From positions 1 to 35,234 of IMG/VR virus record IMGVR_UViG_3300035070_003112: DNA of 35,234 nucleotides; one strand, given 5' to 3'. Positions within the stretch are counted from its first letter, which is position 1. Every line of letters starts with the position of its first letter. The DNA comes from a virus. Below are positions 3,586 to 27,144 of the stretch, piece after piece. A program made the translations under genes and the position numbers. Under the pieces are notes generated by a model, which saw only the letters and a program-made list of their open reading frames with translations, had not been told where the DNA came from and made no database searches.

Positions 3586-3779
3586 TTTATTCCCCTATTC
3601 CAGCTCATAATGAGTAATGGTTTCTTGTCTACGCGATTCTGCACCACCATCACACGCTCATATCTCATTGACTCGATATATTGCACAGCAACTTCTTCGC
3701 ACAAATAGTTCTCGTCAGTATCTTCTGTTTTCCACTCGGCCTTATCGGCAAGGCGCTTGCGTGTGTATAGTGTGAACAT
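3582..3779 (-). CDS. Hypothetical early protein, 65 aa
   Basis: A small acidic-then-basic soluble protein starting MFTLYTRKRLADKAEW. Its ATG overlaps the stop of the cytosine methyltransferase (TGATG). The overlapping second frame of that locus also runs 37 bases into this gene. No family is recognised. The chain of four-base overlaps with its neighbours suggests translational coupling. Confidence 0.6.
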   Translation of the reverse strand: MFTLYTRKRLADKAEWKTEDTDENYLCEEVAVQYIESMRYERVMVVQNRVDKKPLLIMSWNRGIK

Positions 3780-4986
3780 CAGAACCTCTCAGCAAGTTTG
3801 ATAAATGCGTAAGCTGCTTGGACCGGTACAACGCCATTTCCGAGCAATCGCAAGGCATCCCTGCGATGCTCCAAAACTGAGGCCAATTCATCATCCAGTT
3901 CACAAATAGTGGGTTTAACTTCTGGGTTGCTTTGAATGACTTCTGCCCATCCTCTATCGTCGTTTGGAGGTGGTGGGAAAATTCTGATGCTTTTGCTATC
4001 AGATATTTTCGGCCAACCATATGCTTGTAACTCTTGCTCCCTGGTGGACCGACTCCGTGATTGTCGCTTGCCCTCGGAGTCGGCCTGGCCGACTCCGTGA
4101 ATATTTTTGCTTGACCTTGAAGATTCAAGGTCAGCTTGTTCTTGTCTCCCTGTTGGTAGCTGTAATCTCCCGTTGACACTTTTGGAGTCTGCCAAGCAAC
4201 TTGCTCTCGCAAGTTGCTTGGGCGTGTTCTGCCCTCTCTCTGACCACCTGGCCCCATCATCTTTTCCATTGCTTCTTCGCTGCGTTGTGGCAGGTGATCC
4301 ATTGTGTTCGGGGTCGCCCAAAGTTGAGTAGCCACCTGGTCCAGTTGTAAACCGTACTTGGTTCCTGTTGTGTGGCTCCTGTTCTCCCCGTTGGTCAATG
4401 CTCTGGATTTGCCCCTGTCCCCATCTGAACTTTTGGGTGTCGGCCAGGCCGACACCCTTTGCGAGTATAAACAATCGTTTTCTCTGGTGTGTGTTGCCTG
4501 TCTCTGACGCTGTAAACATTCCTGCCTCAACTGCGTAACCCAAATCGTGCAAGTCTCTGACCACTTCGTCGAAGCCAAGACTGAGGTGTCCTGCGACGTT
4601 TTCAAAGAAGCACCAAACAGGTCTGATTGTACCGATGATTCTTTGTATATCTGGCCAAAGGTGCCGTGGGTCATCGCTTCCTCTGCGGTGACCGGCTGCG
4701 GAGAAAGGTTGGCAGGGATAACCACCGGTAAGGATGTCCACTTTTCCGCGCAGATGGTGCCCAACTTCTTTTGCGAATGTCTTAACGTCGCTCCAAATTG
4801 GTGCAGGGGTGATGTGTCCTTCTTCCATTCTTTGAGCAAGTATCGATGCTGCGTAGAGTTCCCTTTCCACGTAGCATTGCGTGATAGTTTCTCCACCATA
4901 GTATTTGATGGCAAGGTCAAGTCCGAGGTCGAGTCCTGCCCCTCCTGAGCAGAGGCTAACCACGTTGTAGGTATATATATCCACAT
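3742..4986 (-). CDS. Overlapping 414-codon frame within the methyltransferase locus
   Basis: A second same-strand frame open for 414 codons, covering all of the cytosine methyltransferase gene and 37 bases beyond. ATG 4986 directly follows the TAG of the upstream gene, with AGGAG about 11 bases before. Unlike an ordinary shadow frame it has phrases I associate with a recurrent phage family: W-x-TP repeats (SAWPTPKSSDGDRG, QLWATPNTMDHLP, VAWQTPKVSTGDY, ARPTPRASDN), RPSNLREQV, and a C-terminal LNPLFVNWMMNWPQFW. These are the same DNA as the LADS phrases of the other frame. Either the locus is doubly coding, or one frame's conservation explains the other. Function is unknown. No other shadow frame in the window approaches this length. 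Confidence 0.45.
   Translation of the reverse strand: MWIYIPTTWLASAQEGQDSTSDLTLPSNTMVEKLSRNATWKGNSTQHRYLLKEWKKDTSPLHQFGATLRHSQKKLGTICAEKWTSLPVVIPANLSPQPVTAEEAMTHGTFGQIYKESSVQSDLFGASLKTSQDTSVLASTKWSETCTIWVTQLRQECLQRQRQATHTRENDCLYSQRVSAWPTPKSSDGDRGKSRALTNGENRSHTTGTKYGLQLDQVATQLWATPNTMDHLPQRSEEAMEKMMGPGGQREGRTRPSNLREQVAWQTPKVSTGDYSYQQGDKNKLTLNLQGQAKIFTESARPTPRASDNHGVGPPGSKSYKHMVGRKYLIAKASEFSHHLQTTIEDGQKSFKATQKLNPLFVNWMMNWPQFWSIAGMPCDCSEMALYRSKQLTHLSNLLRGSDVHTIHTQAPCR
3779..4984 (-). CDS. dcm: DNA (cytosine-5) methyltransferase
   Basis: A C5-MTase with motifs in canonical order: motif I LCSGGAGLD near residue 11, motif IV GYPCQPFSAAG with catalytic Cys at about 91, motif VI FENV at about 127-130, motif VIII QRKRLF at about 167-172, and a C-terminal motif X LLGNGVVPVQAAYAF. 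Between VIII and X lies an unusual target-recognition region with repeated LADT/LADS/ISDSKS phrases. Chosen start: GTG 4984, giving the normal short lead into motif I. A longer frame to 5065 would overlap the upstream gene by 79 bases. Likely modifies phage DNA to escape host restriction. A second frame is open over the entire gene (see 3742-4986), with its ATG two bases before this GTG so that one ribosome site AGGAG serves both. Confidence 0.9.
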   Translation of the reverse strand: MDIYTYNVVSLCSGGAGLDLGLDLAIKYYGGETITQCYVERELYAASILAQRMEEGHITPAPIWSDVKTFAKEVGHHLRGKVDILTGGYPCQPFSAAGHRRGSDDPRHLWPDIQRIIGTIRPVWCFFENVAGHLSLGFDEVVRDLHDLGYAVEAGMFTASETGNTHQRKRLFILAKGVGLADTQKFRWGQGQIQSIDQRGEQEPHNRNQVRFTTGPGGYSTLGDPEHNGSPATTQRRSNGKDDGARWSERGQNTPKQLARASCLADSKSVNGRLQLPTGRQEQADLESSRSSKNIHGVGQADSEGKRQSRSRSTREQELQAYGWPKISDSKSIRIFPPPPNDDRGWAEVIQSNPEVKPTICELDDELASVLEHRRDALRLLGNGVVPVQAAYAFIKLAERF

Positions 4987-5352
4987 CTAAAAAAGTTCTC
5001 CTTGTGCTTGCTTGTGTTTGCGTGCTCGATCGGCATAACTCTGCCGTATCTTTGCCTGTAACCACGCTGGAACCTCCTTCTTTTTTTTGTCCGTCTTCTT
5101 CTCTACACCAGGCAGCGTATCTTGCACCAGCACCGCCATACGCCTACGCACCGGCTGAGTCTTTACGATGTCAGCCAGTTCTGCTCCCAGCTGCACAGCG
5201 TCCAAAATGCTCATCTCTCTTGCAGCGTGCCCACATTGCACACAGTCTGCGACTATATCACTGGACCGGATAAAACCAGACCGCTTATACCTGAGCACTA
5301 TGGGCATCATCTCTTCACATTTATCGCAAAACAGTTTGATCGGATCTTTCAT
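4987..5352 (-). CDS. Zinc-finger protein, 121 aa, upstream of the methyltransferase
   Basis: ATG 5352 follows GGGAGG at good spacing (a GTG at 5355 is possible). The N-terminal half holds C9-x2-C12 (LFCDKCEEMMP) and C37-x2-C40 (DCVQCGH), a zinc ribbon. The C-terminal half is basic with a lysine cluster (KKTDKKKKEVP) and helical, ending KQAQGELF, suggesting nucleic-acid binding. The stop TAG abuts the ATG of the overlapping frame and the GTG of the C5-MTase. A partner role with the methyltransferase is possible from position but not shown. Confidence 0.7.
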   Translation of the reverse strand: MKDPIKLFCDKCEEMMPIVLRYKRSGFIRSSDIVADCVQCGHAAREMSILDAVQLGAELADIVKTQPVRRRMAVLVQDTLPGVEKKTDKKKKEVPAWLQAKIRQSYADRARKHKQAQGELF

Positions 5353-5369
5353 CACATCCTCCCATATAA

Positions 5370-5708
5370 TTACACATCATAATGTGCTACGACAGCATCT
5401 ACAGACTCAAACACAGGTATCTTTAACGATTGAGCTCTGCAAACTTGAACATCAGCGCCAGCACTATCACCTGGTAATCGCAACAAACAATCACACATTG
5501 GCAAAAACGACATATCAATAGCCATCCACTCGTCATAATTTCGAGGTTGATATATATGCAAAAAATGAGACAATAATGGCGTATATGGCGAGATACAATA
5601 ATCCATTAACTTGTGCGCGGCTTCCATTTGCGCACGCACATTTTCAGCACTATCACCTACAGTATACGGCGATGCGATATAACATTTCACAAACCATAAT
5701 GGCATCAC
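5370..5708 (-). CDS. Nucleoside 2-deoxyribosyltransferase-like protein (DUF4406-like)
   Basis: A 112-residue Rossmann-like protein. It opens with a strand and YIASPYT, then a helix NVRAQMEAAHKLMDY, a middle PLLSHFLHIYQPRNYDEWMAIDMSFLPMCD, and a GADVQVCRAQSLKIPVF helix-strand end. This is the layout of the DUF4406/2-deoxyribosyltransferase-like families, in which D and E residues of the middle and GxxxE-type helix act on the N-glycosidic bond of nucleosides. Here the usual E of GxxxE is replaced (GADVQVC), so catalysis is uncertain. Its GTG/ATG start overlaps the preceding gene by four bases. It may take part in nucleotide salvage or base modification beside two methyltransferases. Confidence 0.7.
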   Translation of the reverse strand: MMPLWFVKCYIASPYTVGDSAENVRAQMEAAHKLMDYCISPYTPLLSHFLHIYQPRNYDEWMAIDMSFLPMCDCLLRLPGDSAGADVQVCRAQSLKIPVFESVDAVVAHYDV

Positions 5709-7966
5709 ACCACCTCCGAAAATAGTGTCGGTGTTTCTACAATCTCCTCTGCGCGAGTCAAATTCTGCACCGCAGTATCAAAATACGATCGCTTCAACTC
5801 AATACCTACAAATCGCCGATTCAATTCAATCGACTTGTAGCCTTCAGATCCTATACCAGCAAAAGGTGACAATACCAGATCACCCGGCGCACTCCACAAC
5901 TTAACAGCTCGCTCGATGACGCCCAATTGCAACGGACATAAATGACGCTCATCATCTGTTTCACGGGCCTGCCGAACATTCAGCACATCAGCCTCTTTGA
6001 TGCCACCGGGATAGTCTGGTGTATGTCGATACCATACTGGAGCTGCCCACTCGATCCATTCTTCTTGAGTGATCCATCCCTCGCCATTGCCATACTTCGG
6101 GCTAATACCTGCTTGTATTGGATTGGGATTATCACCTGGTTTGCGAAACTGCAACAAATAATCAGCCAGTGCCATATGCATATGCGAGCTATCATTGGCC
6201 AATGTTTTAAACAACAACCCACGATCCTTTGTCCTGATTGCTTTCAATTGAGGACACTTATCAATGCACACCTCGCCGTAATAAATCCACCCAGCATCTT
6301 GCATTGCCTCGATGGTTTTCCCTCTAAAATCCTTGATCCCTATGTATCCATCTTTACTTTTAAACGCGACTGCTTGAGTCAAATGCATTGCACACGTTCT
6401 GCCTGGCATAGTTACACGTAACAAATCAGACATTAAAAACTTAAAATGATTGATCATCTCATCAAATGACCGTGCATTGCCCATATCACGTGCTGAATTG
6501 GTATACGCATACATCGATGGGAACGGTGGCGAGAATACGCTCAGACCTACACTATCTGTTTCAACTTCTTTAATTCGTTCGCAAGAATCGCCCAGCATTA
6601 AATGCCAGCCATTTCCATATGCATTATCGGTTTGATATGCCATCTCATCTCTCCTTGAATTATCTATTTGAATGTTCAAGCCTCGCATTTCACGAACAAT
6701 AGAGCGTATCATCTCGTTTGATTGCTGTTCTTTGCGCTTTATATTTCGGACAACAGCGCCCTCTGTATCTGCTGTAATGATATACACATCCACATCTGAT
6801 TCTTGACCAAAACGCCAACATCTGCGTATAGCCTGATAAGTCTGCTCAAATGAATCTGACAAACCAACAAACGCGATATTATGGCAGTGTTGCCAGTTCA
6901 TACCAAAACCGCATATAGTAGGCTTACTTATCAACACACGCACATTCCCATTGGTAAAATCCATCAAAGCCTTTTCTTTATGCTCGTTGCTATCAGATCC
7001 TTTCACTTCTACAGCGTCAGGAATAGCACTTTTCAATGATTCTGATTCACTATTGAGATTACACCAAATCAACCACGCATCATTATTGTCATTTACCAAG
7101 TCAGCACAACGAGCCACGCGTTCTTCTTGACTGTCACGTCGAGCATCTCTGCGCTCTTGCAGCGTTTGTGCTTCCATTGGAAATAGAGTCGATAAATTCT
7201 TGCCAGCTACGGTGACAGTCTCTTGTTTGACGTTCAATTTTGGCAACTCGAAACCATCATCAGAAAAACCTAAATCCGATGGCTTTTGCAGAGCCACAGA
7301 CCACGTGGCCATCCAACGCCAAAAGTCCTCACGTGCGTGCCCCTTAAGACGCCATTTGTGTGTCGTGTTACCATCCTGAGTAAAAAACAAAGCCATTATT
7401 TCTTTGCCATTCATTACATCTAAAAACTCAGCGTGATTCGTCAGCTCGATAAGATCATTTGGCGCAGGCGTCGCTGTGCACGCCAGCCGGTAATTGATCT
7501 CCATCGCAAAATCAGTGATTGTCTTTCGGTATTTGCCATCAAACGATTTTAATATGCTCGACTCATCTAACACGATTGCGCCAAAATCACGTGAGTCGTA
7601 ATGATGCAAACGCTCATAGTTTGTCACGTTGATACCTGGCTTAATATCTTGCCCACTCCGGCACAGATTCACAGGGATACCAAACTTATCACCCTCAATC
7701 ACAAACTGCTGGCCAACTGCCAATGGCGTCAGCACTAACACATTGTTATTTGTTTTCCGATATATCTGTGATGCCCACTCCAATGCCATCAATGCCTTAC
7801 CCATACCACAATCAGCAAATATCGCAGCACGGCCGCGTTTTACTGCCCACCGAACAATCTTGCTTTGGAATCTAAACAGTGCTGGATTCACATCCTCATC
7901 ACTTACATCAAAACCTACATCCACTGTTTCTATTCTCTTGCCATCTAAAAACTCTTTATAGTCCAT
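5705..7966 (-). CDS. SNF2-type helicase fused to a DNA N4/N6 methyltransferase
   Basis: 753 residues from ATG 7966, after a purine-rich AGAGAGAC; ATG 7993 has no ribosome site. N-terminal half: superfamily 2 helicase with Walker A-like DCGMGK (about 52-57), LDES box (about 133-136), TATP motif III (about 164-167) and a C-terminal RRCWRFGQ motif VI. From about residue 442: a beta-class amino-methyltransferase with catalytic SPPF (about 479-482) followed much later by the SAM motif SPFAGIGSEGYKS and IELNRRFVGIEL. Order IV then I fits the N4-cytosine/N6-adenine beta group. No nuclease domain is seen, so this is not an obvious restriction enzyme. The combination recalls DarB-type antirestriction proteins of phage P1 (helicase plus methylase), though the order differs. 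A strong internal ribosome site precedes the methyltransferase part. Confidence 0.88.
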   Translation of the reverse strand: MDYKEFLDGKRIETVDVGFDVSDEDVNPALFRFQSKIVRWAVKRGRAAIFADCGMGKALMALEWASQIYRKTNNNVLVLTPLAVGQQFVIEGDKFGIPVNLCRSGQDIKPGINVTNYERLHHYDSRDFGAIVLDESSILKSFDGKYRKTITDFAMEINYRLACTATPAPNDLIELTNHAEFLDVMNGKEIMALFFTQDGNTTHKWRLKGHAREDFWRWMATWSVALQKPSDLGFSDDGFELPKLNVKQETVTVAGKNLSTLFPMEAQTLQERRDARRDSQEERVARCADLVNDNNDAWLIWCNLNSESESLKSAIPDAVEVKGSDSNEHKEKALMDFTNGNVRVLISKPTICGFGMNWQHCHNIAFVGLSDSFEQTYQAIRRCWRFGQESDVDVYIITADTEGAVVRNIKRKEQQSNEMIRSIVREMRGLNIQIDNSRRDEMAYQTDNAYGNGWHLMLGDSCERIKEVETDSVGLSVFSPPFPSMYAYTNSARDMGNARSFDEMINHFKFLMSDLLRVTMPGRTCAMHLTQAVAFKSKDGYIGIKDFRGKTIEAMQDAGWIYYGEVCIDKCPQLKAIRTKDRGLLFKTLANDSSHMHMALADYLLQFRKPGDNPNPIQAGISPKYGNGEGWITQEEWIEWAAPVWYRHTPDYPGGIKEADVLNVRQARETDDERHLCPLQLGVIERAVKLWSAPGDLVLSPFAGIGSEGYKSIELNRRFVGIELKRSYFDTAVQNLTRAEEIVETPTLFSEVV
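6641..6656 (-). promoter_or_regulatory. Internal ribosome binding site and ATG at the methyltransferase domain
   Basis: Within the helicase-methyltransferase gene, AAGGAG (6656-6651) lies seven bases before ATG 6643, in frame. It would start a separate methyltransferase of about 312 residues (MAYQTDNAYGNGWHL...) exactly at the domain border. The spacing is ideal, so both fused and free forms may be made. Confidence 0.6.
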
Positions 7967-7993
7967 CGTCTCTCTCTTCCTCTTAGGGAACAC

Positions 7994-14635: not shown

Positions 14636-16741
14636 TTATCGCTGTATTCTGCTAATATATGGATTGCCTTTTCCTCTGCGCTTTTTCATCTTCTTCGACT
14701 CTTCACGCAATGCCCGATTAACAGCTTCTGCAACACTCATAGTGGATAGAGCAGCATTTGTCACTTTATGCTTGGTAGTTAGATTGTCGCGCAAATTATC
14801 AAGCTGTTTGACCATATCACCAGCAAGTTTCTCTGTGGCACCCAAACGATAGAAGAAATTGCCCACTGCTCGTGGATTATCAATGGTCACTGACGATAGC
14901 ATACGCCCAACAGCAGAGCCAGCAGAGGCACCTACAAGTGCACCAACATCGCCAAAACCTGCCGCGTGTGCCAATCCAGCACCTACAGCTGCACCGGTGC
15001 CAAAACCACCTGCACCACTTGTGGCCATTGCACGTGCGATGCCTTGTGGTACAAGATCACGCAACTGGATAGCGGCCAGTTCTGTGCTCAAATTACTTGC
15101 ACTGCCAGTTTCTTCTATCAGCGCAGTTTTGAGATCGCCCTGCACATCTGCAAGTTTTCTACCCTCAGATGGGATACCTCGATCTATAGCCATTTCCAAT
15201 AGTTTTTCTTTTGGCATTGCCGCCAGATCATAGCCTGCCTGCTTTAATTGGGAGACTTCTATAATATTGTCGATCTCTTCGACAAGTGCACGATTATAGG
15301 CATTGCTATCGCTCAACCTCTCATTCATCGCATTGCCTATGCGTGTGAGCGTTTTTGTGTTTATAGGCTTGATATTGCCTTCGATGCCGATAAAGTCGAG
15401 AGGACCACGTTGCGGAGTAATACCTAACGCCTTTTCTGTTTCTTCTAAAAACTGCTTCATCTGAGCATATCGCTCTGCTCTGAAGTTATAGCCATCGATC
15501 TTGTTTCCCAATTCATCACGTATTTTTTGCCGCATACCCTGCACAACAGCGTTTACACCAGCATAGTTTGACGAATTGGGCCCACGCTCTACTATCTCGT
15601 CAAGTTGTTGGATCGCTAAATGTGATCCATCGATAGAAGCATCACCCCAATCCTTCATCAACGCAAACGCCTGCCTAATGCGCTCTTGTTTGGCACGTGC
15701 TGGCCCAGTATCACCTGCCCATCGTGTCTTACCAAAGTCTAATTCTATCGTTTGTGTGCCATCAGAATTGACCCTGCGGTCGATTTTGATTCCCCACGTA
15801 TCTTCAAGGTCTTTAGCAATCTCTTTGCGCACATCTACAGGATTTACTGGGTTATCTGAGTCTTTAAATTTTAACCTTGCCGTATCTTCTCTGAATCGCT
15901 CGGCCATCGTAGACTTGCCTGCTTGTATACCACGCTCATAGTCAAGCACCAGGTCCGACATGTCTTTATTACTCTTCAATGTCTCTCTAAATGCTTGCGC
16001 TTGCCCACCGCCGGCTTTACCAGCCTCACGTGCAGCACTTACTCGTAGGGCACCCACACCAGATCGCAAACCTGCTTTTGACTCCATAAAGTCAGACAGT
16101 AGCGATAGGCCCTTTTTGCCACCCTTGCTGACTGCTGTTACTGCAATTTCTGCAGGGTCTACATATTTCAAAAATTTAGCCGCTTTCCCTACATTGCCCA
16201 TACGTGCCAACATTGCAGGCTTTGTAACCGCAGAGAGGTCCAAAATACCACCCACGGGATCCTCTTGTAACGTGCCGGCCGGATCTCTCAGCATACGTGT
16301 TAATTGCTTGCTCAGTTCTTTTGCTATCGCAGCATCCTCTGTTTCTTCTCCCTGAGCAATATCTACAGCCCCTTTTACGCCAGATTTGATAAGTCCGATC
16401 GTTTGCAATGGTGATGTAACCGACTCTACACCACTGACTACTACATCACTCAAACTGCCTGGTATATTACCAATCGCTGTTGATGGCTCAAACGGTGGCT
16501 GCACAGATTCTTGAAAAGATGTTTCACCAGTAAGTGTGTTAAAAATACCCTCTGGTGTGAGTCTACCTTGTGGCCGTGATCCAAATCCTTGTCCTGTTTG
16601 CCCCATTTGAGGATCTACAGGTTGCTCTTGTGGTATACCAAGCGCCAAAGCACGCTCTTCCACTGTCATCGGTGCCTGCTCATTGTCTGGCGATACCGTA
16701 ATACCTGCAAGTGCTTTTTCTTCTGGCGTCAAGCCTGCCAT
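14636..16741 (-). CDS. Putative internal/ejection virion protein, 701 aa
   Basis: The last gene of the late transcript. The N-terminal third is flexible and rich in Pro, Gln and Gly, the centre is helical and charged (for example ERYAQMKQFLEETEKALGI), and residues about 560-620 hold a Gly/Ala-rich amphipathic stretch (ATSGAGGFGTGAAVGAGLA, then ALVGASAGSAVGRML) of glycine-zipper type. The C-terminal tail is very basic. Size, position after the tail genes and membrane-active glycine zippers fit podovirus ejection proteins, which leave the head and form a channel across the host envelope. No lytic transglycosylase motif is seen. Assignment by context. Confidence 0.55.
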   Translation of the reverse strand: MAGLTPEEKALAGITVSPDNEQAPMTVEERALALGIPQEQPVDPQMGQTGQGFGSRPQGRLTPEGIFNTLTGETSFQESVQPPFEPSTAIGNIPGSLSDVVVSGVESVTSPLQTIGLIKSGVKGAVDIAQGEETEDAAIAKELSKQLTRMLRDPAGTLQEDPVGGILDLSAVTKPAMLARMGNVGKAAKFLKYVDPAEIAVTAVSKGGKKGLSLLSDFMESKAGLRSGVGALRVSAAREAGKAGGGQAQAFRETLKSNKDMSDLVLDYERGIQAGKSTMAERFREDTARLKFKDSDNPVNPVDVRKEIAKDLEDTWGIKIDRRVNSDGTQTIELDFGKTRWAGDTGPARAKQERIRQAFALMKDWGDASIDGSHLAIQQLDEIVERGPNSSNYAGVNAVVQGMRQKIRDELGNKIDGYNFRAERYAQMKQFLEETEKALGITPQRGPLDFIGIEGNIKPINTKTLTRIGNAMNERLSDSNAYNRALVEEIDNIIEVSQLKQAGYDLAAMPKEKLLEMAIDRGIPSEGRKLADVQGDLKTALIEETGSASNLSTELAAIQLRDLVPQGIARAMATSGAGGFGTGAAVGAGLAHAAGFGDVGALVGASAGSAVGRMLSSVTIDNPRAVGNFFYRLGATEKLAGDMVKQLDNLRDNLTTKHKVTNAALSTMSVAEAVNRALREESKKMKKRRGKGNPYISRIQR

Positions 16742-16751
16742 ATATCACTCC

Positions 16752-18131
16752 TTAAAATATCAGACCACGTGCTATTCTACGCCGAAACTCAGTCAAAATA
16801 TCTGCTGGTGGGTTATCAGGATCTTTTGCTAATATCTGCTTGATTTTATCGTTTGTCATCCGCTTAGGATCTGCTTCTACATATGTCACTGGCCCGTTTT
16901 CATATGCGTTCTCGATCGTATTTAACGCGGCCTGCCTTTGCACGTCTAATGATACCAACAGATTCTCTTTAGATCCTCTGGTATTGCCAAACAAAGAGTT
17001 ATAAAACTGTTCTTCGCTCATACTCATCGCAGCGCCGGTTCTGTTACGCACCAACAGATCAAAAGCATTTTTCAGTGATGAGAAGAACGCCTGTTGCTCT
17101 GGCTCTAATGCTCCACTATTCAACTTCGCAGTTAATTCCGTCAACGCACCAGGCACAAGGCCCAAATTATCTTGCACCACTGGATTATCTAACAGAGCAT
17201 CAACAGCATCAACAGCATCCAAAAAAGCCTCTTGCTTCAACACCTCAGTCTGCATTGGTCCACTAAAGTTTTCAAAAGCACGTTTTCTGGCAGGCACTTC
17301 AAAAAGTGTAAATATTTTTGCTTTTGACTCTGCCTCTTGAGGCGTCCACTCAATGCCATTGGCTTTTGCTTGCAATTGTGCCTGCTCCAAAGCACCAGCA
17401 ACATCCAACTCCGCGCCTACCAACTTATCAGTAATAGATGCTACCGCCGTGTTATATTTTGAAATTGCCTGACGTGGTGTTTCTGTCACCCTGTTTTTAT
17501 ATGCCTCCGTCAATTCTCCAGTTTCTGGATCACCAATCATCACTGTTGTGGCGCCATTGGCGTCTTTTATTTGGATAAATTGGCCTTTTTGCTTGCCTAC
17601 CTGCATTTGTTCTTGTGTGCCGTCGGGATTTACTTTTAAAACGACATTGCCACTTTGAAAATACTTCGGCGTGCCTCCCGTTTTCGCTGCTCGCTGTTGT
17701 GCTGTTTGTGCCTGTATTTGTGCAGTCTCCGCTTGTGTTTTTGCAATCTGATTTTTTGCATCGAGGGCAGACTGTTCGCGTGCCACTTTTGCCAGCCGTT
17801 GCTCTTCTTCTGCTTTGCCCTTCGTAAACGAGCTACCTACTTGTGCGCCCAACATAGCACCTTGACCACCACCGGCCAGTGCACCGATGGCAGCACCTCC
17901 CAATGTAGGTGCCATCGCCTTTGCAAAGTCGATCAGACCATCTCTAAATCGTGGCACGCCCTTCTCGTCGGGAACACTGTCATTAGGTGATTGTGACGTA
18001 TCTACTGGCGTTTGTGGCCCTGTAGCAATAGGTGGCGGTGTCGTTGTCTGTATCGGTCGCTGCCCACTTATACCCTGACGGATGAGCATGTCCAACGGTT
18101 CCGGTAATATTGATCGTATTCCAAGTGCCAT
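16752..18131 (-). CDS. Putative internal/ejection virion protein with glycine zipper, 459 aa
   Basis: Proline/threonine-rich N-terminal linker (residues about 20-55), then a glycine-zipper hydrophobic segment (LGGAAIGALAGGGQGAMLG, about residues 77-95), then a long coiled coil rich in Ala, Gln and Lys (NQIAKTQAETAQIQAQTAQQ). The remainder is helical and globular with MSMSEEQFYNSLFGN. This combination of a zipper and coiled coil fits an ejection protein acting with its two neighbours. No enzyme motif is seen. Confidence 0.5.
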   Translation of the reverse strand: MALGIRSILPEPLDMLIRQGISGQRPIQTTTPPPIATGPQTPVDTSQSPNDSVPDEKGVPRFRDGLIDFAKAMAPTLGGAAIGALAGGGQGAMLGAQVGSSFTKGKAEEEQRLAKVAREQSALDAKNQIAKTQAETAQIQAQTAQQRAAKTGGTPKYFQSGNVVLKVNPDGTQEQMQVGKQKGQFIQIKDANGATTVMIGDPETGELTEAYKNRVTETPRQAISKYNTAVASITDKLVGAELDVAGALEQAQLQAKANGIEWTPQEAESKAKIFTLFEVPARKRAFENFSGPMQTEVLKQEAFLDAVDAVDALLDNPVVQDNLGLVPGALTELTAKLNSGALEPEQQAFFSSLKNAFDLLVRNRTGAAMSMSEEQFYNSLFGNTRGSKENLLVSLDVQRQAALNTIENAYENGPVTYVEADPKRMTNDKIKQILAKDPDNPPADILTEFRRRIARGLIF

Positions 18132-18148
18132 TGATAAACTCCTCTTTA

Positions 18149-20167
18149 TTACAATCTAAACCCACTCGTTTGCCCACCACCACTGCCAACGCTAAAATTA
18201 AACCCGCTGGTAGGAACATTGCTAAAGTCTGTCTGCCCAGGATTGTTTCTGTTGCCACCAAATACGGTGCCTGCAGTGTTTGCAATGCTTCCTACAAAGG
18301 CCAATAATGTTTGAAGCTCTTGAGCATCCAATTTCTGCAAGTCTAAGTCCAACTTCTGAGCCAGAGCATCTATATCAAAATTCATTTTCTCATTAAACTG
18401 GCGTTTTTGCTCAACAAATTGATCACGCTCTAAACTTGTAACAGGAACAGGAACAGGTTGGCCGTTTGCGTTTAGGCCCCACTTGTGCTTAATAGATCCA
18501 TCATCGTTAAATACAAGACCAGTAGTAAGCGAGTTAAATTCTCGTTTTGCCTGCCCAAACTGCTCGTCAAACTGCCGTGTGGCTTCAGCAAGCCGTGTTT
18601 CCTCAATACCGAAGGCTTGTGCAGCCTCACGAGATGACGCATCCAACTGTTGCTGTGCCAGCGTGCGTCGGCCATCTTCTGGTACAAACTGACGAATACC
18701 ATTGCCCAAGTCAGCACTTTGGCTTGCCAATGCGATAAAGTCTGGAAACTCAAAAACACCATTGCCGTCAATGTCAAACTCTGGTCTAAAGTCTGGATCG
18801 CCAGCTGCTGCACCTATTCGCTGTGTTTCCAATTCTTCAGGTTTAAACGTCACTGAAGGCCCACCACCAAAAAGCTCTGCCTCAGAGAGTCCAAACTGGC
18901 GTGCAAATTCACTGGCACGTTGCCCCAATTCCGCGTTAAATTGCGTATCTTGCTGTCTGAGCTGTTGCAATGCTATTGTTTCACCACCAGCGTCTGTGCC
19001 TGTCAATCCCAATCGTTGCAGTGCGTTGGATTCTTGACGCGCCAAACGTTGCTCTTCTAATGTTTGCGCAAACTGCTGGCCGCGTTGTTGAAACTCTGCA
19101 CCGGCCAATCCCAACTGCCCACGTTGTATCTCTGCATTAAGTGCTTGGGTCGCTTCTGCAATACCCAAATTCCCTAAGCTGACTTGCTCTTGTAAGTCTT
19201 GAGCCCGACCACGCAAAGCAGCATCAGAACTTTGCGCAGCTTCTGCTAACGATTGAGCACGCCCGGCCAGTGTGTCTTGGCCTGCAATCTGGCCAAGTGC
19301 CTGCTGTTGTGCAAACTGTTGCCCAATGTCAAACTGCCTGCCCTGCTCTGCTAATTGTTGTTGTGACAATCCTAATTGACCGCGCTGGACCTCCGCATTA
19401 AGCAGCTGGTTAGCTTGGTCGATATTCAAATTACCCAAGCTAACCTGTTCTTGCAATCGTTGGGCCTGTTGCCGCAAGTTTATATCTGCGCTCTGTGCTG
19501 CCTCTGCCAGATCGATCTGGCGTGTTGTAGCCCCTCGCGCAAATGCACCTGCACGCTCTGACTCAGTTTGTGCACGCTGTCCGAGCCCTATTTGATTTGC
19601 TAACTGACGAGACGCCAACGTATCAACACCGCCGATCTGGCCCAATTGTGATGCGTCAAACTGTCTGGCCTGCTCTGCCTGTCCACTCTCAAACTGTACT
19701 TGATTTTGCAGCGCACCGAGCCCCTGCAATCCTAATTGTGCAGCGTTTAAATTCAAGCCTTGCTGTTGGCCTTGTAATCCCTGCAATGCTCCTAAATTGG
19801 CGCGTGATTCTTGGCCACCACGCAAAGACAGCTCACTCTCAAGCGCTGCTAAGTTGCCAAGCCTGGCACCTTCAATAGCAGAGAATGGCCGTATTGCTGC
19901 ACCCGTTTTTATGCCAGACGGATCGAGCGCAAATGTGCGTGCAATATTCTCTCTGGATTGCTGTGCTTGTTGCTCTAATAGGTTTGTGCGTGCATTGCGT
20001 TCTGCATCGGCATTAAAAGCACCCAAAGATCCACTGAGCGTATCAATTTGTGATTGTAGTGCATCGTTGTTGCCCAATATAGATTTGCGTTGCTCCTCGT
20101 CAAAAGGATCTGCCAGCTTTTTACGCAAAGTGTTTTTTAATGTTGGAGTTGTGGTGTTTAGTGGCAT
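18149..20167 (-). CDS. Gln-rich repetitive virion protein with dockerin-like Ca loop, 672 aa
   Basis: Residues 55-430 are an extended Gln/Ala/Leu-rich helical repeat region, including two copies of a roughly 60-residue unit (about 220-280 and 307-366, both with LQEQVSLGNL and NAEVQRGQLGL/NAEIQRGQLGL). Residues 465-476 (DIDGNGVFEFPD, inside PEFDIDGNGVFEFPDF) match a dockerin/EF-hand loop D-x-D-x-N-G-x5-D. The C-terminal part has another helical region and a Gly/Ser/Asn-rich tail. It is the third member of the putative ejection-protein set and lies next to the endolysin gene. Ribosome spacing to the endolysin stop is tight (five bases). Calcium binding is inferred from the motif. Confidence 0.55.
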   Translation of the reverse strand: MPLNTTTPTLKNTLRKKLADPFDEEQRKSILGNNDALQSQIDTLSGSLGAFNADAERNARTNLLEQQAQQSRENIARTFALDPSGIKTGAAIRPFSAIEGARLGNLAALESELSLRGGQESRANLGALQGLQGQQQGLNLNAAQLGLQGLGALQNQVQFESGQAEQARQFDASQLGQIGGVDTLASRQLANQIGLGQRAQTESERAGAFARGATTRQIDLAEAAQSADINLRQQAQRLQEQVSLGNLNIDQANQLLNAEVQRGQLGLSQQQLAEQGRQFDIGQQFAQQQALGQIAGQDTLAGRAQSLAEAAQSSDAALRGRAQDLQEQVSLGNLGIAEATQALNAEIQRGQLGLAGAEFQQRGQQFAQTLEEQRLARQESNALQRLGLTGTDAGGETIALQQLRQQDTQFNAELGQRASEFARQFGLSEAELFGGGPSVTFKPEELETQRIGAAAGDPDFRPEFDIDGNGVFEFPDFIALASQSADLGNGIRQFVPEDGRRTLAQQQLDASSREAAQAFGIEETRLAEATRQFDEQFGQAKREFNSLTTGLVFNDDGSIKHKWGLNANGQPVPVPVTSLERDQFVEQKRQFNEKMNFDIDALAQKLDLDLQKLDAQELQTLLAFVGSIANTAGTVFGGNRNNPGQTDFSNVPTSGFNFSVGSGGGQTSGFRL
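19070..19510 (-). repeat. Tandem-like internal duplication in the Gln-rich protein gene
   Basis: DNA for residues 220-280 (19510-19328) and 307-366 (19249-19070) encodes near-identical 60-residue units 87 codons apart. The two copies differ at many silent sites, so the duplication is old and selected at protein level. Confidence 0.7.
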
Positions 20168-24605: not shown

Positions 24606-25606
24606 TAAAACTCTCCAGGCATCACGGTATTGACACCATCAATAGAACCTATGCGAGATCGATCATTTATAAATGTATCGTTTGTAACATTACGAAACCG
24701 TAGAACCAGATTAGGTTTTCTTTGTTGTGTGGCTTTAAACTCCGCAAATTCTCGCTCATAATCGTCTCTCATTGTCACCGCGAGTTGTGGGCGCCCCACC
24801 ATTGGCAAAAGATCCGAACAAGGCCCCGATACCAATAGCCCGTGATAATCTTCATCAAACTGTGGCCAATCAAGATCATTGACCAGTGGCGTTTTTCTCA
24901 TAACACATCGCACAGTAAGTGCACGCACATCATCTGGTGTAGGATACATCTCGATCCATCTATAATTCACTGCATCCATATCAACAGGGATGATCGCCAG
25001 TGTATTTGAGCCACTATCTGTAACTGTTATCTCACCAGTGATCGCAGAGCCATCTTCATTATCCTTGCTAATTGCCTCGATAGGGTATGATGAACTAAAA
25101 GATATAGTGGTGTTTACTTCTGTTGTACCATTGAGAGTCACCGTTTCAGATCTGTAGTTGTTGCTGCCATCGAACCCACTGATTCGCACATATCTATTTG
25201 TCGCATCACTCGTTACACTACTGACAACACCGAGAACGCCTGTTGATGCAGGCTTTGCTTGTGAGCCAAATATGCCATACTGATAATAACGCCGTGCTGT
25301 TCCTGATGCTGTAGTGCCTGATAGATACGTGTCATATTCTGATCTGGTCATCTCACGCACGGGCCATTTAGCTGTTGGATCTTCAATGTTCAAGATACGC
25401 TTAACATTTAACGGCAACCCATACTGCGATTGTGACGCTACCGTGTTAAGCGTAAACTCTCGATGCTCGTTGTCTTGGTCCACAGCGCCCAATATACGAC
25501 GATACCACCTGTTGACTGTGCGCTTTGCCTCTGTTTCAAAGTCAGCACCTGCTGGCTGTCCAGATAATTCCAGTATCTCGGTTATTATGTCTTTGTATAG
25601 ACTCAT
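24605..25606 (-). CDS. Putative head-tail adaptor, 333 aa
   Basis: The N terminus MSLYKDIITEILELSGQ, then FETEAKRTVNRWYRRIL, is a helical bundle as in P22 gp4/T7 gp11-type adaptors that sit under the portal. A beta-sandwich insert (about 120-200) and a C-terminal helical part (LVSGPCSDLLPMVGRP, DDYEREFAEFKATQQRK) follow. It overlaps both neighbours by one to four bases. Assignment by helical N terminus and order. Confidence 0.6.
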   Translation of the reverse strand: MSLYKDIITEILELSGQPAGADFETEAKRTVNRWYRRILGAVDQDNEHREFTLNTVASQSQYGLPLNVKRILNIEDPTAKWPVREMTRSEYDTYLSGTTASGTARRYYQYGIFGSQAKPASTGVLGVVSSVTSDATNRYVRISGFDGSNNYRSETVTLNGTTEVNTTISFSSSYPIEAISKDNEDGSAITGEITVTDSGSNTLAIIPVDMDAVNYRWIEMYPTPDDVRALTVRCVMRKTPLVNDLDWPQFDEDYHGLLVSGPCSDLLPMVGRPQLAVTMRDDYEREFAEFKATQQRKPNLVLRFRNVTNDTFINDRSRIGSIDGVNTVMPGEF

Positions 25607-27144
25607 TGTATCTCCTTCCAGCTCATCGCAACTGCCACATCGTGAGAACCAGAACTGGTTTCTCCTGTTACGTGGAAGGATTCGCCAGGTTCAATATAAA
25701 AATCATATGGTTTCACATCTATCACCTCAGCAGAACCATCTACCAAGCCAGCACCCGATACGATAAACCCACCACTGACAGCGTCGGATGTTACATCATA
25801 AAGTATCATGCTTTGTGTTGCAGAAACAGCTTCTACCATTGACGGTTCTGCTGTGCCTCCTGATATGTCAGCATTTATTCTGAACCGTATCTTCACAGGC
25901 TTATTGCCACTGTTTTGCACTGTGGAGATAATGATATTGTCGAGCCGTATGGTAGACCGATTTTCCTTGCCATTGTATACCAACTTGTTATACACGCTGA
26001 CGATTGGCTCTTCCGATGTTCCCACAGAAGCATTTTCAGCGACAACGCCAGTTCTTACACCATACGGATTATCTATACCTTGAGTAAAGCCACCCATAGA
26101 CGCAGTGTATAACTGTATGTTTGATGTGTTAGATGTGTTCTGCACTTTCGCATGTAATGGCAATGTCGGATTCGTCACTGTCGGCACTGTTGCCGTGTTG
26201 GCATATTTTATTCTGTGAGCGACAATCAAACGTCCTGTCTCTGGATTTTCCACGCAGAACAATACCTGTCCAAATCCTAACCACTGAAACTGTATCTCGT
26301 AGACGTTGCCATTTGTTGGGTCTATAGTAAATCCAGATGATCCTGTGCCATCCAGCTTGTCGCCATTAAAACTTGACGATGCCACCCATGTGTCTGTTGC
26401 TTCTGTGCCAGCAACTTGCTGTGCTACTGTAATAGCAACGCCAGTGGTGTCGGTATCTACAAAGCTAAAAGCACCTGCCATTGCCTCAGCAGTCTCTGAC
26501 ACGAAATACGCTGTCTGACCAATGACTCTGCATTCCCATCCATTGCCGACACTTGACCAATCTACAGCACCTGTTCCACCTGCACATATTTCGTATGCAA
26601 TCTCAGTTGCGTCATTGCCGTTTGTCACCTCAATGGCCTGCGATGTGCCATTAAGTGTGATTGTGATAGTGCCACCTGCGGTTGTGGCACCGTTGGTAAC
26701 GGCAAACGTATGTATCTGTTTCTTGCCGTGTGCTCGCCTTAAGACACCAAATGATGTGCCGTTATAGCCCCAAAAAAATCCATCTTCTACGTTGCCGAGA
26801 CCGATCTCTTGCGAACTGTTTGCAGCACCCGTGGTGAAAATAGACGTAAACCGTGCCGCGATACCTTGGCCGGGATTGTAGTGTATATGCCTTACAGATT
26901 CTAATATCGCTGTGCTGTTTGCACTGGCTGTCGTCTGGAGTAATGCCATGTCATTAGACTGCGTGACTGTTCCACTGCCAGGCGTATATGTATTTACATA
27001 TCGTGAATTTATAGAGTAATGAAAGGCAAGATTTACAAGTGGAGACAATTCCGCGGTCAACTGCTCACCAAATGCAGAAAACGCGATTTCTGAGCCATCC
27101 TCTGGCTTTGTTGTTTGTATGCCTTTGTCTATTCTGATCGCCAT
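25603..27144 (-). CDS. Virion structural protein, beta-rich, 513 aa
   Basis: Long beta-rich protein. The N-terminal third carries FGEQLTAELSPLVNLAFHYS and GTVTQSNDMALLQTTASANS, phrases I associate with a widespread family of marine-phage structural proteins. The middle has FTIDPTNGNVYEIQFQWLGFGQVLFCV, like a lectin/concanavalin-type sandwich. The C-terminal domain ends FYIEPGESFHVTGETSSGSHDV. It could be a tail, collar or head-decorating lectin-like protein. Exact role not determined. Confidence 0.65.
   Translation of the reverse strand: MAIRIDKGIQTTKPEDGSEIAFSAFGEQLTAELSPLVNLAFHYSINSRYVNTYTPGSGTVTQSNDMALLQTTASANSTAILESVRHIHYNPGQGIAARFTSIFTTGAANSSQEIGLGNVEDGFFWGYNGTSFGVLRRAHGKKQIHTFAVTNGATTAGGTITITLNGTSQAIEVTNGNDATEIAYEICAGGTGAVDWSSVGNGWECRVIGQTAYFVSETAEAMAGAFSFVDTDTTGVAITVAQQVAGTEATDTWVASSSFNGDKLDGTGSSGFTIDPTNGNVYEIQFQWLGFGQVLFCVENPETGRLIVAHRIKYANTATVPTVTNPTLPLHAKVQNTSNTSNIQLYTASMGGFTQGIDNPYGVRTGVVAENASVGTSEEPIVSVYNKLVYNGKENRSTIRLDNIIISTVQNSGNKPVKIRFRINADISGGTAEPSMVEAVSATQSMILYDVTSDAVSGGFIVSGAGLVDGSAEVIDVKPYDFYIEPGESFHVTGETSSGSHDVAVAMSWKEIQ

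Follow-up and report, generated by a model that had tools for sequence, protein, structure and literature searches.

An overprinted second reading frame in a viral C5-cytosine methyltransferase gene and its predicted role as a subunit of the enzyme

Does a second open reading frame that runs along a whole viral methyltransferase gene encode a protein, and what would that protein do? The question is raised by a stretch of 35,234 nucleotides from the IMG/VR virus record IMGVR_UViG_3300035070_003112, hereafter called the window. On its minus strand, the frame of a C5-cytosine methyltransferase (frame A) is overlapped end to end by a same-strand frame in the +1 register (frame B), with approximately 1.2 kb in common. 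The usual view is that same-strand overlaps of great length are rare and short-lived in DNA genomes. The extents of both frames and their common strand, given earlier in a sequence-only reading of the window, were confirmed, as were the two starts in ATGTGG (ATG of B, GTG of A two bases further on) and the single AGGAG serving both (Table 1). The LADT/LADS/QADS phrases of A were verified to come from the same DNA as the WPTP/WQTP/RPTP phrases of B.

Table 1. Features of the doubly coding methyltransferase locus (window positions)
Feature	Position	Strand	Remarks
Frame A, C5-cytosine methyltransferase (putative alpha chain)	3779..4984	-	401 aa, GTG start at 4984; motifs I-VIII and X, without motif IX
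Frame B, overprinted ORF, +1 register relative to A	3742..4986	-	414 aa, ATG start at 4986, pI 9.4
AGGAG ribosome-binding site, common to both starts	4998..5002	-	11 nt to ATG of B, 13 nt to GTG of A (from the sequence)
Frame A motif I (SAM binding), VVSLCSGGAGLDLG	4922..4963	-	
Frame A motif IV, catalytic cysteine, GGYPCQPFS	4700..4726	-	C91, Q92 region invariant
Frame A motif VI, FENVAG	4589..4606	-	ENV invariant
Frame A motif VIII, THQRKR	4475..4492	-	R168 and R170 invariant
Frame A motif X, LRLLGNGVVP	3824..3853	-	In 66/67 A relatives
Variable region, motif VIII to motif X	3980..4420	-	A: predicted disordered, LADT/LADS phrases; B: W-x-TP modules
Frame B module 1, WPTP	4435..4446	-	
Frame B module 2, WATP	4309..4320	-	
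Frame B module 3, WQTP	4183..4194	-	
Frame B module 4, RPTP	4075..4086	-	
Frame B motif-IX-like segment, LNPLFVNWMMNWPQFW	3871..3918	-	By likeness to the actinophage in-frame segment and to relatives

The sequence-only reading had considered a random frame of this length improbable. The +1 frame of A in the window contained no stop codons, compared with 14.8 expected when codons were redrawn from the codon usage of the window and 8.0 when synonymous codons were permuted within the gene (0/20,000 simulations in each case). No other window gene of at least 200 codons had a stop depletion near this in its +1 frame, and other overlapping ORFs in the window reached only about 200 aa, as had also been claimed. 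In one virion protein gene (window 25603-27144), the +2 frame had 21 stops against 38 expected (0/300 simulations) and no long ORF.

Relatives were fetched from viral contigs by frame A alone (49 in total). Almost all had frame B open along virtually the entire methyltransferase; their +2 frame contained many stops. Stops were summed over distinct copies, with the last 25 codons left out. In the A-selected relatives, 14 stops were found in the +1 frame (203 expected) and 630 in the +2 frame (627 expected). PF00145 methyltransferases that lack B and come from genomes with a B locus differ from the window locus in having no open +1 frame (261 stops, 249 expected). The depletion is found in the B-bearing set and not in the B-less enzymes, and the open +1 frame is thus a trait of one methyltransferase branch rather than of the whole family. 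A chance open frame was ruled out by the window simulations together with the stop counts in relatives. A few relatives had a stop in B and an intact A, with one clear case (L023) and two candidates (L102, L141); in some stop-containing relatives, the stops lay only in codons upstream of the B start. In the clear case (positions 1229-2089), B is broken and A intact, and the sister loci L021 and L022 have B intact.

The substitution test for overlapping genes proposed in the sequence-only reading was run on relatives of the window rather than on near-identical versions of its locus. Each site was classed by the effect of a change on the two frames (silent in both, in only one of them, or in neither), and 30 independent pairs were compared with bootstrapping. 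The dNN/dNS of B was 0.49 over motifs I-VIII (bootstrap 0.39-0.61), 0.11 in the variable region (0.05-0.18), and 0.05 at the C-terminus (0.01-0.12). The +2 control exceeded 1 throughout (1.31, 2.24, and 3.97 for the same three regions), and the +1 frame of flanking genes gave 0.70 (larger set, overlapping pairs). In that larger set, changes synonymous in A and nonsynonymous in B amounted to 0.377 per site for flanking genes and only 0.039 for the variable and C-terminal region. Within the variable region, changes of the opposite kind (nonsynonymous in A, synonymous in B) reached 0.184 per site vs 0.039, and the dNN/dSN of A was 0.51. B is more constrained than A there. A simpler count by codon position agreed with constraint on B. 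Both frames are conserved, and B is under purifying selection as a reading frame of its own; with stop depletion and selection in B beyond what A imposes, the criterion for an overlapping gene was met, in support of the earlier proposal that both frames are genes. Judged from sequence comparison, with no ribosome profiling or mass spectrometry data, the pattern is the signature of a translated second frame.

Frame A matched PF00145 (E=9.8e-30) and phrog_363 (E=3e-54). With motifs I, IV (PCQ), VI (ENV), VIII (QxRxR), and X (GNxVxP), it meets the PF00145 criteria for a C5-methyltransferase. Motif counts in the A and B sets were made by regular expressions, not alignments: motif IX was found in 0/67 A relatives, and motif X, nearly universal in A, in 4/101 B proteins. 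In the AlphaFold2 model of the window A protein, pLDDT was >90 over most of residues 1-188, <50 for most of residues 190-335 (the region between motifs VIII and X), and about 82-98 in the motif X stretch and the helix after it, the C-terminal helices reaching >90. Foldseek against the PDB aligned A to HaeIII and HhaI over about 180 residues. Residues 1-188 thus share the fold and motifs I-VIII with M.HhaI and M.HaeIII, but those enzymes hold motif IX and the recognition domain within one chain. A folded target-recognition domain was not met within the A chain, where most of the VIII-X region had pLDDT <50. Since motif IX is absent and the VIII-X region is predicted to be disordered, A alone resembles a methyltransferase that lacks its recognition domain.

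The B protein of the window matched phrog_1008 (E=2e-17) and phrog_27243 (E=3.5e-11), and the phrog_1008 profile was matched by all 28 aligned B proteins; searches of B against Pfam, NCBIfam, and PDB sequences gave no match. B proteins are basic (family median pI 9.6) and consist of an N-terminal part starting with MW[IL], followed by 1 to 6 W-x-TP modules and a C-terminal LNPxWVEQLMGxPxGW (also written LNPxWVEWLMGxPxGW). This last segment resembles motif IX of C5-methyltransferases (RRLTPRECARLMGF in controls) and was detected in 96/101 B proteins and 0/67 A proteins by regular expressions. Direct profile comparison of B with canonical motif IX was insignificant (E=0.22). The structure model of B was poor (pLDDT 59.5, pTM 0.25), so no fold backs a recognition domain, and Foldseek of this model against viral structures returned one credible match, the uncharacterised phage protein A0A6J5N241. 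Near-invariant residues of the 101 B proteins include no D, E, or H, and B was rejected as a restriction endonuclease. Two plasmid loci (H140, H144) were likewise rejected as restriction-modification systems, with no adjacent annotated restriction gene. H140 lies on a phage-like plasmid with terminase genes and has an HNH endonuclease gene downstream.

Actinophages carry the same parts in other arrangements. In Mycobacterium phage ShiLan, gp70 is a single ORF with motifs I-VIII, then LLPTP modules, then RLAPAFSEWMMGWPAGW, and then IIGNGVVPQQA. The enzyme of Kampy, Juno112, Lilbooboo, Blue7, and Firecracker is divided between two overlapping ORFs (Kampy gp78/gp77 etc.): the first stops soon after motif VIII, and the second, in the +1 register, contains LLPTP modules, the IX-like segment, and motif X, and extends beyond the Dcm ORF. 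When the ShiLan segment was used as a query, it retrieved 572 phage records, nearly all from actinobacterial hosts. The C-terminus of B matched the actinophage in-frame segment by hhalign (97%, E=1.7e-11), and the actinophage segment aligned in register with canonical motifs IX-X, weakly (E=0.013). Given the profile likeness, one lineage thus has the same segment in cis and another has it on a second chain; in most it is overprinted. Rhodococcus phage ReT1v-2 (L263, positions 1565-2764) has LLPTP modules in the +1 frame and an AEWMMG-type segment with motif X in frame A, a mixed layout that can be read as an intermediate between the overprinted and fused forms.

Because motif IX is absent from A, an IX-like segment is present in B, and the actinophage arrangements join the two, B is most likely the recognition and motif-IX subunit. 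B probably supplies what A is missing, and the two are therefore most likely subunits of one enzyme; this role had not been seen in the sequence-only reading, whose proposal of an overprinted target-recognition region is supported. We consider it likely, though not established, that two fully overlapping frames of the locus together encode a C5-cytosine methyltransferase made of two polypeptides, with A as alpha and B as beta chain; separate translation of both chains, their assembly, and target choice by B are inferred. One mRNA with a single Shine-Dalgarno site would be read from two starts two bases apart, AUG for B and GUG for A. The alpha chain would comprise the catalytic and cofactor-binding domain (I-VIII), a flexible linker, and a closing helix with motif X. 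In the basic beta chain, the C-terminal half (W-x-TP modules and IX-like segment) would stand in for the recognition region and motif IX. The chains would assemble after synthesis, and B would select the DNA target. A is strongly constrained over motifs I-VIII and X and weakly between them, and B shows the reverse, a pattern that fits such a division of labour. There is no direct evidence for translation of B or for an A-B complex, and B remains a predicted beta chain whose expression, and the dependence of the enzyme on it, are untested.

Enzymes of this class made of two polypeptides are known: M.AquI is split into I-VIII and IX-X with the recognition region on the second chain, and the larger chain of M.EcoHK31I holds motifs I-VIII and X and a predicted recognition domain, leaving only motif IX to the smaller chain (PMC3404938). 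In the split actinophage pairs, the AquI-type division (alpha with I-VIII; beta with part of the variable region, IX, and X) is met. Like M.AquI, the window locus would have a second polypeptide that holds the recognition region and late motifs, but it does not show this division, since motif X stays on A; its two frames also overlap along almost the whole gene. M.EcoHK31I (YGGCCR) is the closest known case, with the same distribution of motifs over two polypeptides, and its small chain is reportedly read from another frame inside the gene of the large chain. The EcoHK31I-type split was met in the window by regular expression, the profile likeness of B to canonical motif IX being weak. M.EcoHK31I differs in being the enzyme of a single restriction-modification system, with a large chain said to hold the recognition domain; in the window, the VIII-X region of A is predicted to be disordered and the W-x-TP modules are on B (homology of B to the EcoHK31I beta chain was not compared). 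If the reported EcoHK31I overlap is right, the window locus would be a very widely distributed variant of that design in which the small chain carries a recognition region.

The most serious alternative to the two-chain enzyme, itself unlikely, is that the overprinted B is a genuine protein that does something other than form part of the enzyme (e.g. a methyltransferase regulator or a host-acting factor). Its conservation over the full length would agree with this, including the part over motifs I-VIII, as no methyltransferase is known to have a counterpart of the B sequence that precedes the W-x-TP modules, and so would its basic character and the lack of a Pfam or NCBIfam family. However, B was not found away from a C5-methyltransferase in the 159 loci checked, its C-terminal half belongs to the enzyme in actinophages, and A alone would be left without motif IX or a folded recognition region.

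Ribosomal frameshifting could also join the frames, the working enzyme being an A-B or A-B-A fusion and the B start being little used. The A-B-A order of ShiLan gp70 is the product expected of two shifts, and phrog_1008 joins a B-type body to an A-type LGNGVVP end. This explanation is considered very improbable, as motif X is needed in the frame of A and two shifts in opposite directions would be required. B is moreover conserved from its first codons and has a start of its own (MW[IL]) that is conserved: 123 relatives have [AGT]TG-TGG there, with the GTG of A at +2, and in enterobacterial phages B starts inside A, behind its own AGGAG/CGGAG-spacer-ATG within the DERSIEDV codons of A. That B is an untranslated shadow, open only through the amino-acid and codon make-up of A, is scarcely credible: parts of B do mirror conserved parts of A and most annotators record only A, but the effect is abolished by synonymous permutation, actinophages read the B segment as a normal in-frame part of an ORF, and the substitution pattern already contradicts it, with synonymous sites of A frozen where change would alter B and the variable region favouring changes that spare B over the reverse.

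Frame B is widely distributed. A first search for related loci from B alone, with patterns specific to the window, gave no match. Scans with a frame-B profile detected at least 503 relatives in viral contigs. One-per-species genomes yielded 347, including relatives from Bacteroidota, Alphaproteobacteria, Chloroflexota, Planctomycetota, Myxococcota, and archaeal bins; many of the loci on genome contigs are probably prophages, as inferred. Together with the two PHROG matches, this bears out the statement in the sequence-only reading that B belongs to a recurring phage family. On the evidence of these profile matches, the putative double gene recurs hundreds of times, in phages and in the genomes of bacteria from many phyla. 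When the best 80 loci from each scan were inspected, B overlapped Dcm in the same register in 159/159 classifiable loci; no free-standing B gene was found among these, and rare stand-alone copies could have been missed. The earlier reading had stated that it would be refuted if B had no homologues outside Dcm overlaps and carried stops in related phages with a conserved Dcm frame. The first half holds for fully overlapping homologues, found only over Dcm genes, but the second does not, as their frame B is almost free of stops; the actinophage B-type segment, in addition, also occurs in frame within a single ORF or on a second ORF extending past the Dcm end.

Annotators normally record one of the two frames. 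Both are annotated as overlapping CDSs in Escherichia phage K1ind1 (ORF29, methylase; ORF28, 'Mte8-like') and in Xanthomonas phage PhiXhv-18. Only B is annotated in Salmonella phage W5_chr3 and Synechococcus phage Ssp-JY39, and only A in Yong-M2-251, a near relative of the latter. The 'Mte8-like protein' of Guernseyvirinae (phrog_1008) corresponds to B; ORF28 of K1ind1 overlaps its methylase in the same register as in the window. These names, also given to B in some GenBank records, are annotation labels only, and no function or overlap analysis was found for them in the literature searched. A literature search for an overlapping gene within a C5-methyltransferase likewise found no description of the A/B family. 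Prophage-like regions of E. coli also carry the locus. In E. coli Ec1117 (L224, positions 1377-2546), the methyltransferase is annotated as two partial pseudogenes, although A is open without interruption over 404 codons; the annotation was apparently misled by the variable region.

If the two-chain reading is correct, it would account for many phage methyltransferases having no recognisable recognition region in the annotated frame, and for databases listing B as 'hypothetical' or 'Mte8-like'. Cloning of the annotated frame alone may then yield an inactive enzyme, and EcoHK31I, a curiosity of one enzyme, would become a general design. A broader proposal can be put forward only tentatively, as a possibility that we would not yet favour: that a large share of the phage and prophage C5-methyltransferases annotated as single-chain are obligate heterodimers from overlapping frames, each W-x-TP module being a target-recognition unit whose gain or loss changes specificity and rewrites only the disordered linker of A. 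The A/B locus would offer a natural system for studying the co-evolution of two proteins in one sequence.

Elsewhere in the window, three adjacent large proteins (701, 459, and 672 aa; 14636-20167) had no PHROG match. The methyltransferase locus is adjoined by a gene for a nucleoside 2-deoxyribosyltransferase-like protein (5370-5708; phrog_355). A 762-aa protein combining DNA helicase and DNA methyltransferase parts (phrog_16, phrog_67) is encoded at 5705-7993, on the same strand as the locus and just upstream of it.
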